From Eublepharis macularius (lineage: Eukaryota; Chordata; Lepidosauria; Squamata; Eublepharidae): a stretch of DNA of 64,000 nt. The DNA lies in contig NC_072807.1 of the NCBI RefSeq assembly GCF_028583425.1, forward strand, positions 33,299,001 through 33,363,000, written 5' to 3'. Position numbers and translations under genes: made by a program. How positions within the stretch are numbered: the stretch's first letter is position 1; each line of letters opens with the position of its first letter. The notes beneath the pieces were generated by a model. The model made no database searches and had not been told where the DNA came from. It saw only the letters and a list, made by a program, of their open reading frames with translations. Shown here one piece after another: positions 904-58,676 of this stretch.

Positions 904-1000
904 GTAAAGAGCCCAGTAGCACCTTTAAGACTAACCAACCTTTATTGTAGCATAAGCTTTCGAGAACCACAGCTCTCTTCGTCAGATGCAAGTGATGTTT
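904..1000 (-). repeat. single arm of hammerhead-core repeat
   Basis: This arm has the block found repeatedly in the window: a 'GTCCAGTAGCACCTTTAAGAC'-like segment, then an AAGCTTTCGAG segment, then the CTGACGA/GAAA core on the minus strand (core about 947-985). Here the second arm is missing, so the copy is truncated at the palindrome centre. Confidence 0.65.
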
Positions 1001-5298: not shown

Positions 5299-6014
5299 GA
5301 GGAAGTGGAGCTGGTTTGGGAATCTGGTGTAATTAATTACTTCTGTTCTTTTGAGCTGTTCTTTTGAGCTGCACAGATATCTTTTTTTTTTTAATGCAGA
5401 ATACACATTCCTTTTTGCAAGACAGAAGTTCAATGTAAAGCTGGACACACAATCAGCAAGAAAGTGGTTGTTAAACCATAGCAGAAGTATATGTTACTGC
5501 CAGAGAAGTACATGAAGAAGGTGAAGAGGAATATGGCTAAGTACTGGAAGTGTGAATGGAGAGCTAAATAATCTGGGATTTTTTTCCTCTTCCCTCCAAA
5601 ATCAGGAACTGAAAACTATAAATCTAAACTTCCTGGGGGAAAGCTGTAGAGAGAGAGGTTTTTTATATTATTTTCCTGAGAAAACAATCCCATCTCTTGA
5701 AGGCAAAAGCGGATTAAAAGATTAGGGGTTCATTAAAATGCATTACAGGCATTCCCCGCCTTCCACAACAAATGTGAAAGCATTGTGTCTACTTCCTCCC
5801 GTTCCCACCCCCCAGCTCCCATTTAGAAAGCAGGACAGGTTCTCTTTAACCAAGTTGGTCCACAAAATGGAAAGCTCAGCTTTCACGGTTTGGATTTTTT
5901 ATAACCCAGATTCTTAAATCTGCATATATATTTTTTTTAAAAAAGGAAGAATTAAGGTCTGCATCAAACAAAGAAATGGCTTGGAGGGGAGATTTTGTGT
6001 TTTTACACAGACAA

Positions 6015-6226
6015 CATAGTAAAGAGTCCAGTAGCACCTTTAAGGCTAAGCAACTTTACTGTAGCATAAGCTTTCGAGAACCACAGCTCTCTTCATCATG
6101 CATCTGATGAAGAGACCTATGGTTTTCGAAAGCTTATGCTACAGTAAAGTTGGTTAGTCTTAAAGGTGCTACTGGACTCTACTATTTTGCTGCTACAGAC
6201 TAACATGGCTAACTCCTCTGGATCGG
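6015..6226. repeat. foldback repeat with hammerhead-like core and 9-bp target duplication
   Basis: Two inverted arms meet near 6100. The right arm has CTGATGA (6104-6110), a hairpin, GAAA and GCTTATGCTAC (ending 6142). The element is flanked by CACAGACAA on both sides (6006-6014 and 6227-6235). The left arm is shorter than the right, as if truncated on integration, while the right end keeps 'GGCTAACTCCTCTGGATC'. Confidence 0.75.
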
Positions 6227-9030: not shown

Positions 9031-9240
9031 GATCCAGAGGAGTTAGCTGTCTTAGTATGCTGCTACAAAATAGTAAAAAAAGTCCAGTAGCACCTTTAAG
9101 ACTAACAAATTTTATTGTAGCATAAGCTTTCGAGAAACACAGCTCTCTTCGTCAGATGCATCTGATGAAGAGAGCTGTCTTTCTCGAAAGCTTATGCTAC
9201 AATAAAATTTGTTAGTCTTAAAGGTGCTACTGGACTCTTT
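9031..9240. repeat. foldback repeat with hammerhead-like core in both arms
   Basis: The left end keeps 'GATCCAGAGGAGTTAGC'; the right end stops at 'GGACTCTTT'. The arms are nearly identical inverted copies meeting near 9158. Cores: minus strand 9117-9155 (CTGACGA ... GAAA) and plus strand 9162-9200 (CTGATGA ... GAAA). This is the cleanest two-armed copy in the window. Confidence 0.8.
9162..9200 (+). ncRNA. hammerhead-ribozyme-like core
   Basis: CTGATGA (9162-9168) is followed by a hairpin with GAGA/TCTC pairing, GAAA (9186-9189), then GCTTATGC, which can form a 2-bp stem III, and UA. This order matches the type I hammerhead core with very short stem III reported in Penelope-like elements. 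Base 2.1 (T before CTGATGA) does not pair with C after the UA, so stem I is poor and activity is doubtful. Confidence 0.5.
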
Positions 9241-9495
9241 ATGAAAGAATTCTCCCTGTGCGGAAGTAATCTGAGTGAATCTTAGAAGTGGACAAGGCAG
9301 TATCAGTTTACGACAAATGAAGACAACTAAGATGAGAGGGCATGGTAAAGATTTGTAGAAGTATGCAAACTGAGGAGTTAAGAGGATAGAGGTTTTTTAT
9401 TCCCTGGCCTCTTTCAGAATGTTCAGGGACACCCCATAAAATTGTTGAGCAATAGATTCAGAAGAGACAAAAAGAAGAGTACTTCACATAGTGAT

Positions 9496-11208: not shown

Positions 11209-11516
11209 ATGGTTGTTGTGGGTTTTCCGGGCTGTATTGCCGTGGTCTTGGCATTGTAGTTCCTGACGTTTCGCCAGCAGCTGTAGCTGGCATCTTCAGA
11301 GGTGTAGCACCAAAAGACAGAGATCTCTCAGTGTCACAGTGTCACAGTGTCACACTGTGACACTGAGAGATCTCTGTCTTTTGGTGCTACACCTCTGAAG
11401 ATGCCAGCCACAGCTGCTGGCGAAACGTCAGGAACTACAATGCCAAGACCACAGCAATACAGCCCGGAAAACCCACAACAACCATCGTTCTCTGGCTGTG
11501 AAAGCCTTCGACAATA
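11209..11516. repeat. foldback repeat (CGAAACGTCAGG family), 12-bp target duplication
   Basis: Two inverted arms run from 'GGTTGTTGTGGGTTTTCCGG' inward and meet near 11350. Each arm has CTGAAGA, a 6-bp hairpin GCCAGC/GCTGGC and GAAA: minus 11269-11299, plus 11395-11425. Flanks are TATCCGTTTTCA (11197-11208) and TATCTGTTTTCA (11517-11528), one mismatch. The same family occurs at 42470-42752. Confidence 0.8.
11395..11425 (+). ncRNA. hammerhead-ribozyme-like core with strong stem II
   Basis: CTGAAGA (11395-11401), T, GCCAGC (11403-11408), 7-nt loop, GCTGGC (11416-11421), GAAA (11422-11425), CGTCAGG. Stem II is a perfect 6-bp helix. CTGANGA plus stem II plus GAAA is the conserved hammerhead core; stem I and the cleavage dinucleotide cannot be fixed from sequence alone. 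Confidence 0.5.
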
Positions 11517-15861: not shown

Positions 15862-15955
15862 CTTCTTTAATGCATCTGACGAAGAGAGCTGTGGTTCTCG
15901 AAAGCATACGCTACAATAAAGTTGGTTAGTCTTAATGGTGCTTCTGGACTTTTTT
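15862..15955 (+). repeat. hammerhead-core repeat, one arm (left duplicate)
   Basis: Core CTGACGA (15876-15882), hairpin, GAAA, GCATACGCTAC (ends 15914), then 'AAAGTTGGTTAGTCTTAATGG'. It lies inside an RTE-like LINE and is repeated at 16853 on the other side of an L1. Confidence 0.7.
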
Positions 15956-16852: not shown

Positions 16853-16985
16853 TTAATGCATCTGATGAAGAAAGCTGTGGTTCTCGAAAGCTTACGCTAC
16901 AATAAAGTTGGTTAGTCTTAACGGTGCTTCTGGACTTTTTACCATTTTGTAACTACAGACTAATACTGCTAATTCCTCTGGTTCT
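16853..16985 (+). repeat. hammerhead-core repeat, one arm (right duplicate)
   Basis: Core CTGATGA (16862-16868) ... GAAA ... GCTTACGCTAC (ends 16900). The arm extends to 'AGACTAATACTGCTAATTCC', so unlike the left duplicate it retains the far end, which shows the original insertion was in the RTE LINE here. Confidence 0.7.
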
Positions 16986-27312: not shown

Positions 27313-27440
27313 TCCATGCATCTGACAAAGAGAACTGTGGTTCTCGGAAGCTCATGCTACAATAAAGTTGGTTAGTCTTAAAGGTGCTACTGGACTCTTT
27401 GCTATTTTGCTACTGCAGACTAACACGGCTAACTCCTCTG
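27313..27440 (+). repeat. hammerhead-core repeat, one arm
   Basis: CTGACAA ... GGAA core is mutated (from CTGACGA ... GAAA). The rest of the arm ('AAAGTTGGTTAGTCTTAAAG', 'TAACACGGCTAACTCCTCTG') is well kept. Confidence 0.7.

Positions 27441-37409: not shown

Positions 37410-58676
<21,267 letters not shown>

Follow-up and report, generated by a model that had tools for sequence, protein, structure and literature searches.

The 64,000 nucleotides (nt) of Eublepharis macularius DNA analysed here (assembly GCF_028583425.1, contig NC_072807.1, positions 33,299,001 to 33,363,000 of the forward strand; the window) carry foldback repeats such as the one at 9031-9240, whose two inverted arms meet at a palindromic centre and bear cores resembling the hammerhead ribozyme, and this raises the question of how two such arms come to be joined head-to-head at a single insertion site. 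A reading of the sequence alone had taken these foldbacks for nonautonomous derivatives of Penelope-like elements (PLEs), with several subfamilies at one locus. We conclude that the repeats are pseudo-long terminal repeats (pseudo-LTRs, the mRNA 5' region with its hammerhead motif) of inserted PLEs, and the best explanation overall, which we consider quite probable, is that both ends of a chromosome break primed on sense RNA, one at a site that leaves a short tail (S) and the other at a site that leaves a long tail (L).

Two families, A (82-nt arm, 9159-9240) and B (138-nt arm, 11348-11485), dominate, and copies were collected from the genome (2.24 Gb, 72 contigs) with queries that end at S, so that neither end class should be favoured. 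Outward ends were classed as S or L at positions 142 and 175 of a 175-nt reference for B, and at positions 82 and 126 of a reference taken from 6099-6226 for A. Two-armed insertions were arranged head-to-head with outer ends at two fixed sites ~30-50 nt apart, and 80 of the 81 insertions with both ends classified paired one S with one L end (38 B, 32 A, 6 from a third PLE family, D, and 4 GIY-YIG loci), the last being S/S and none L/L. Family B contributed 42 two-armed entries, 38 of them classified (21 with L on the left and S on the right, 17 the other way round, no S/S, no L/L), and family A 39 with 33 classified (19 and 13 in the same order, one S/S, no L/L), such that L lies on the left in 40 and S on the left in 30 pairs of both families together; for 70/71 S/L pairs in these two families, a binomial test against even odds yields 6e-20. 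The classified foldbacks of the window are S/L in 6/6 cases, a seventh two-armed entry (W2250) having one unclassified end. In family D all six pairable two-armed places among 29 matches were S/L, with duplications of 10-15 bp, and the GIY-YIG loci L017-L050 include five with inverted arms and a duplication of 10 bp or more (L022, L038, L040, L047 and L050), in each of which one arm was ~30-50 nt longer; as L047 is the first family D case, the other four were added to the count. Inverted arms lacking a 10-bp duplication stayed uncounted (L029, L031, L036, L037 and L041, of which L036 appears S/L by eye and L031 is another repeat). This one-short, one-long rule points to copying of a single RNA piece by both strands of the broken chromosome, from two neighbouring starts.

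The flanks of the foldbacks bear the mark of individual insertions. The longest match between the two flanks reached at least 8 bp in 35/38 B and 25/32 A pairs (60/70), compared to 1.3% and 0.3% with shuffled partner flanks, and its median length was 12 bp in B (most often 12-13 bp) and 9 bp in A. Duplications of at least 10 bp were present in 47/70 A and B pairs, all 47 being different, and their A+T content of 70% (63% in the 8-nt flanks) agrees with the short duplications and AT-rich targets of PLEs. When four single-armed copies were re-read with ~3 kb more flank, the three B copies (L101, L106 and L108) turned out to be S/L foldbacks with duplications and with larger arms bearing an open reading frame (ORF), while no second arm appeared for the A copy L125. 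Separately, two B insertions (L052 and L055) went into an identical point within another repeat (flank GTGGGGAT; duplication AATAATGACATA or AATAATGGCATA), which indicates that insertion targets are not fully random.

The assignment to PLEs, already proposed from the sequence, held up, and ties the families to a retroelement rather than to a DNA transposon. A genome search for the GIY-YIG endonuclease domain gave at least 78 matches (150 of 3593 candidates scored), and four of six ORFs scanned (both arms of L047, L048 and L049) contain RVT_1 and GIY-YIG together. At locus L044 a GIY-YIG domain (Pfam match at C5:26606615) is followed on the same strand by a family A pseudo-LTR. In family B the pseudo-LTRs come after ORF ends that contain a GIY-YIG-like segment, which in one BLASTP comparison aligned to L048 with 42% identity over 31 aa (E 3e-6); two family B ORFs scanned gave no Pfam match at 0.01. 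No reverse transcriptase (RT) domain was recovered for family A or B, and for A only the endonuclease (EN) was seen. Beyond the B core the sequence can be read as an open N-terminus, with the predicted ribozyme cut 26 nt after the start codon, and the outer ends of B correspond to ORF nt 85 and 118. Inverted pseudo-LTR order and a tail (33 nt in B, ~44 nt in A, ~30-50 nt elsewhere) are both present, in line with the EN+ Penelope/Poseidon clade of PLEs, whose pseudo-LTRs are direct or inverted and may bear a 30-40 nt tail. One locus (L131, positions 21-230) contains four tandem 52-bp units from the 5' part of family A, which form a PLE-derived minisatellite.

At the inner side, 58/76 B arms and 55/64 A arms (113/140) reach the presumed RNA 5' end, ~25-30 nt upstream of which a TATA-like sequence, recognized by eye and presumptive in its role, occurs in the longer copies L101 and L125. 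No arm of the 140 ended within 3 nt of the predicted ribozyme cut; arms end at S, at L and mostly at the RNA 5' end, and are not the monomers bounded by the cut site that, repeated in tandem and with canonical hammerheads, define the nonautonomous, circular-RNA retrozymes. The ribozyme does not appear to cut the template before copying. Exact palindromic centres were found in 14/39 A foldbacks (10 more under relaxed matching) and 8/42 B foldbacks. Incomplete arms were seen in 12/38 L versus 6/38 S arms of B and in 6/32 L versus 3/32 S arms of A, numbers that are suggestive only. The arms of A pairs shared 51 non-consensus states, compared to a mean of 22.8 (maximum 35) in 1000 shuffles, and their mean partner rank was 0.286 (30/32 pairs) versus 0.5 expected under a null simulated from uniform ranks rather than permuted arms. 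Likewise, the 2.28-kb arms of L047 are 99.4% identical to each other and ~98% identical to L048, which, together with the shared variants in half of the A pairs, points to one RNA or one source locus for both arms. In L070 (positions 284-369) the 5' part of a B pseudo-LTR is tandemly repeated within a single arm, which looks as though the enzyme started again at RNA 5' ends.

We then consider what the hammerhead-like core contributes. Cores (CTGANGA...GAAA) were listed on both strands of the window and compared with inverted repeats (the 25 longest of 29 pairs). There are 9 copies of the strict motif (CTGANGA, one base, stem II with 5 or more paired bases, GAAA, NN, T) in the window and none in any of 100 random windows matched for dinucleotides (mean 0, maximum 0), and the loose core pattern occurs 368,941 times genome-wide on both strands versus 168,942 for the reversed pattern. 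The sequence-only reading had named ten repeats with a core just beside the palindrome centre in each arm, in several coexisting families; the coexistence was borne out and cores were found at most of these places, but both arms keep the core intact in only three (9031, 11209 and 42470). The left arm at 6015 lacks the first bases of the core, the foldback at 51312 has no intact core in either arm (the left one is mutated and the right arm begins downstream of it), and for the repeats at 904, 15862, 16853, 43440 and 51920 the search, at its sensitivity, showed one arm only; a foldback absent from that list (50569-50774) has cores with a GAAA to AAAA change. Adjacency to the centre is direct in family A, but in family B the core lies ~48 nt away.

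Rfam hammerhead models returned no hammerhead family among their matches at any threshold used, one of three outcomes that the earlier reading had named as speaking against it, and the motif was therefore tested by stem pairing and compensatory change instead. The motif follows the order of a minimal type I hammerhead, with stem I before CUGANGA and a single extra base, then stem II, GAAA, a loop of two bases, U and H, where the extra base and the two loop bases were built into the search motif for stem pairing and thus are not counts. Stem I reads GCAU/AUGC in A, as folding also shows (three RNAs folded, none of unusual stability, z -0.25 to -1.64), CCU/AGG in B, and, in three copies of a related family C, GUAU/AUAC or GUAU/AUAU. 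In core-selected motifs, stem I pairs 1-4 are paired in 42-48/53 of A/C, and in B pairs 1-3 in 13-14/14 and pair 4 in 1/14; U16.1 is present in 51/53 A/C and 14/14 B motifs and H17 in 51/53 and 14/14, and stem III is only an A-U over two loop bases, at a self-complementary place (AGCU in A, ACGU in 11/14 B motifs). In 26 distinct family A cores, stem II pairs 1-5 are paired in 24-26 and pair 6 in 15. Stem II keeps its pairing, and compensatory changes separate A from C (C-G to U-A in stem I, A-U to U-A in stem II); no double change was seen within A. An alignment of 11 hand-picked rows of A and C (omitting family B, the copies with a 27-nt core at 43494, L072, L074 and L078, and the C copies deleted after GAAA, L073, L075 and L076) had 87.6% of its cells paired, a value reached in 0/500 shuffles and at most 46% when partners were slid, a covariation score matched by 2/500 shuffles, and double changes in one stem I and one stem II pair; the number of double-change pairs is not by itself above shuffles (196/500). 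Taken together, structure, not activity, supports a putative hammerhead.

It is nonetheless possible, if doubtful, that the core reflects sequence requirements at the PLE 5' region (start codon or protein binding) and is not a working ribozyme, which would be compatible with priming at S and L. The missing Rfam match, the extra base between CUGANGA and stem II in A and B motifs, the B stem I of only three pairs and the lack of arm ends at the cut would all fit such a constraint, as would the report that the motif of an anole PLE is cleaved only with protein (PMC11167929, available text); the same text states that this motif does cleave with protein and that C3 and G8 single mutants fail, which, along with the compensatory changes in stems I and II between A and C, argues for a ribozyme. 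Amphibian hammerheads with a weak palindromic helix III have been reported to be more active as dimers (PMC7229834, available text).

How, then, would S/L foldbacks arise? That the tails point outward and the 5' ends meet at the centre implies that both 3' ends of the break primed first-strand complementary DNA (cDNA) on sense RNA; if priming was direct, the duplicated flanks call for 3' overhangs of ~12 nt. We propose that the endonuclease would make a staggered double-strand break with 3' overhangs, and that both 3' ends would prime cDNA on sense RNA uncleaved by the ribozyme, one starting at S and its partner at L, in the simplest case on the same RNA molecule, where each site would be used once since copying takes it out of use. 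Both cDNAs would extend as far as the RNA 5' end or terminate before it, their 3' ends would anneal through the self-complementary 5'-terminal sequence (TGCA in A, the near-palindromic TCACAGTGTGA in B), and fill-in would complete the foldback. That the two end sites differ in almost all pairs is not easily explained by free choice of site or by a copied hairpin; the pairing follows if one RNA serves both ends with single-use start sites, or if a dimer presents two sites. In vitro, the anole PLE protein was reported to cut and extend both strands, with two adjacent internal starts that match the genomic tail, and ribozyme mutants of this PLE to insert normally (PMC11167929, available text). 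As to PLEs at large, we lean slightly towards the view that they integrate by priming at two sites of the same RNA with the self-complementary 5' end joining the cDNAs, a third insertion route beside one-ended target priming and integrase.

Several observations weigh against this account. In vitro there was no strand difference in start site (available text of PMC11167929), which is a statement about a population and compatible with a rule that holds per insertion. Among the 81 two-armed A and B entries (42 + 39), 10 were unclassifiable (4/42 in B: L056, L084, L086 and L094; 6/39 in A: L071, L117, L120, L131, L132 and W2250), several being degenerate and L086 not a foldback. The single S/S foldback (L128, family A) has mirrored genomic flanks as well and therefore probably reflects a later palindromic event. 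A flank match of 8 bp is lacking in 7/32 A and 3/38 B pairs, and two truly single-armed copies, L058 (L) and L105 (S), carry the duplication directly at the 5' end, so that a second arm is not obligatory. Most palindromic centres are inexact, with extra bases, deletions or unequal arms. Partner rank is bimodal, with 15/30 A pairs in the closest tenth and 15 spread like random arms, a signal that age blurs, and family B is too uniform for a shared-template test (3 shared states versus 1.5).

Among the rival routes to an S/L foldback, two-sided priming on two RNAs brought together in a dimeric particle, the shape of which would impose a start at S for one and at L for the other, is unlikely in our view, although it has points in its favour: a dimer was predicted for the anole protein (PMC11167929, available text), the self-complementary stretch at stem III (AGCU in A, mostly ACGU in B) could pair two RNAs, and half of the A pairs have arms with no special likeness, while the other half share variants well above chance and the near-identity of the L047 arms indicates one RNA or one source locus. 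Much less probable is self-priming as proposed for rotifers in 2013, by which the palindromic end of an antisense PLE transcript folds over and primes its own copying, and the resulting head-to-head hairpin is then inserted. The palindromes at inverted junctions and the head-to-head order described there (PMC3846280, available text), and the palindromic centres present here too, agree with it, but a copied hairpin should give equal tails or random ends rather than two different fixed sites in 80/81 pairs, and the outer ends have flank matches of at least 8 bp in 60/70 A and B pairs. That nonautonomous families spread as ready-made palindromes, as the sequence-only reading held, or that these are DNA-transposon foldbacks, is scarcely credible, since high copy number, short length and near-perfect palindromes are outweighed by variable inner junctions, often unequal arms, outer ends of unequal extent (S versus L) and the identical architecture of arms that code for RT and EN. 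Own target-site duplications and varying inner junctions make the foldbacks look made anew at each insertion, most arms extend from the presumed 5' end of the mRNA to a point inside it where reverse transcription began, as an ordinary PLE mRNA would give, and the two-armed architecture extends to the RT- and EN-coding arms of L047. The foldbacks look like by-products of PLE mRNA 5' ends, not like separate nonautonomous families.

The arms and cores placed in the window are collected in the table.

Table. Pseudo-LTR arms and hammerhead cores in the window (S, short tail; L, long tail).
Feature	Position	Strand	Remarks
Family A arm, long tail, L end at 9031	9031..9158	-	foldback 9031-9240
Family A arm, short tail, S end	9159..9240	+	foldback 9031-9240; flanks: 7-bp match only, no clear duplication
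Hammerhead core, left arm of foldback 9031-9240	9128..9155	-	
Hammerhead core, right arm of foldback 9031-9240	9162..9189	+	
Family A arm, S end, foldback 6015	6012..6098	-	
Family A arm, L end, foldback 6015	6099..6226	+	flanks: 9-bp match CACAGACAA
Family A arm, L end, foldback 50569-50774	50569..50696	-	absent from the sequence-only list
Family A arm, S end, foldback 50569-50774	50693..50774	+	flanks: 7-bp match only
Family A arm, S end, foldback 51312	51318..51399	-	
Family A arm, L end, foldback 51312	51417..51527	+	flanks: 10-bp match CAGAGACATA
Family B (Poseidon-like) pseudo-LTR arm, S end	11209..11346	-	core 11269-11299
Family B pseudo-LTR arm, L end	11345..11516	+	core 11395-11425; flanks: 7-bp match
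Family B pseudo-LTR arm, S end	42468..42583	-	core 42528-42558
Family B pseudo-LTR arm, L end	42604..42754	+	core 42633-42663; flanks: 12-bp match TATAGGAAGTAT
Single family A arm, S end	908..990	-	core 958-985
Single family A arm, S end	15871..15950	+	core 15876-15903
Single family A arm, L end	16857..16984	+	core 16862-16889
Single family A arm, ending near L	27317..27440	+	
Single family A arm, S end	43445..43524	-	core 43494-43520
Single family A arm, L end	51922..52049	-	core 52017-52044

The single A copies at 15871-15950 and 16857-16984, 986 bp apart and in the same orientation, have ~115 nt of upstream DNA in common that lies outside the pseudo-LTR reference; this could go back to a duplication or to a chimeric template that was copied twice, once from S and once from L. 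A second set of foldbacks (24812, 31455, 32489, 51009, 56841 and 60665) has palindromic CCAAGCTACA/GTGAC-like arms without a hammerhead core, and a copy of this kind occupies the centre of the B foldback in L099. A near-perfect palindrome at 49549-49810 (129-nt arms, 99%) also lacks the core. The foldbacks at 9075-9242 and 50617-50772 gave matches to microRNA (miRNA) families (MIR821 and mir-559) with low E-values but below the gathering scores, and PLE foldbacks are a possible source of false miRNA annotation.

The S/L rule is sharp, can be checked by script in any PLE-bearing genome and makes direct predictions for the existing in vitro system. If the two-site reading is true, the tail and the 5' palindrome of PLEs would be two parts of a two-ended integration device, and the abundance of hammerhead-bearing palindromes in this genome would be explained. 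The 2013 study calls for experiments to choose between PLE insertion models (PMC3846280) and that of 2024 leaves the later insertion steps for validation (PMC11167929), each in its available text.

Among known systems, Poseidon_Ac (PAc), a PLE of the green anole, has its RT start at 111-118 and a second site that bounds a tail of 30-40 bp (PMC11167929, available text). Family B resembles it in the predicted position of the cut after the start codon and in an ORF that begins at stem II, its two outer ends fit the PAc start sites, and an AC-rich sequence stands at the S end; this likeness is a fit of coordinates with the available PAc text, not a letter-by-letter comparison of sequences. A search of the text of the PAc paper found no mention of palindromes, head-to-head order or target-site duplications, and its available text gives no pairing rule between the two start sites. 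Pen2a_Av and related rotifer PLEs have palindromes at the pseudo-LTR 5' end, as here; the available text on them describes few copies, offers no count of tail pairing and presents self-priming on antisense RNA as a hypothesis, and the word hammerhead is absent from the main text (PMC3846280). The minimal type I hammerheads of PLEs (PMC6155905 and PMC7229834, available text) likewise show type I order and a minimal or absent helix III, lie in pseudo-LTRs and include motifs, reported to function as dimers, with a self-complementary stem III stretch as here; ours differ from them in the one extra base before stem II and in lacking an Rfam match. A full-text literature search, with most subscription papers outside its reach, found neither a count of tail pairing nor a two-site model. 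The object is of a known kind, a tail on one of the inverted ends has already been described, and the new part is the counted S/L rule with its two-site reading. In LINE-1 twin priming, too, two target 3' ends prime on one RNA and yield an inverted product, the second priming being occasional and at an arbitrary internal place. By contrast, the starts described here are fixed, adjacent and used once each.
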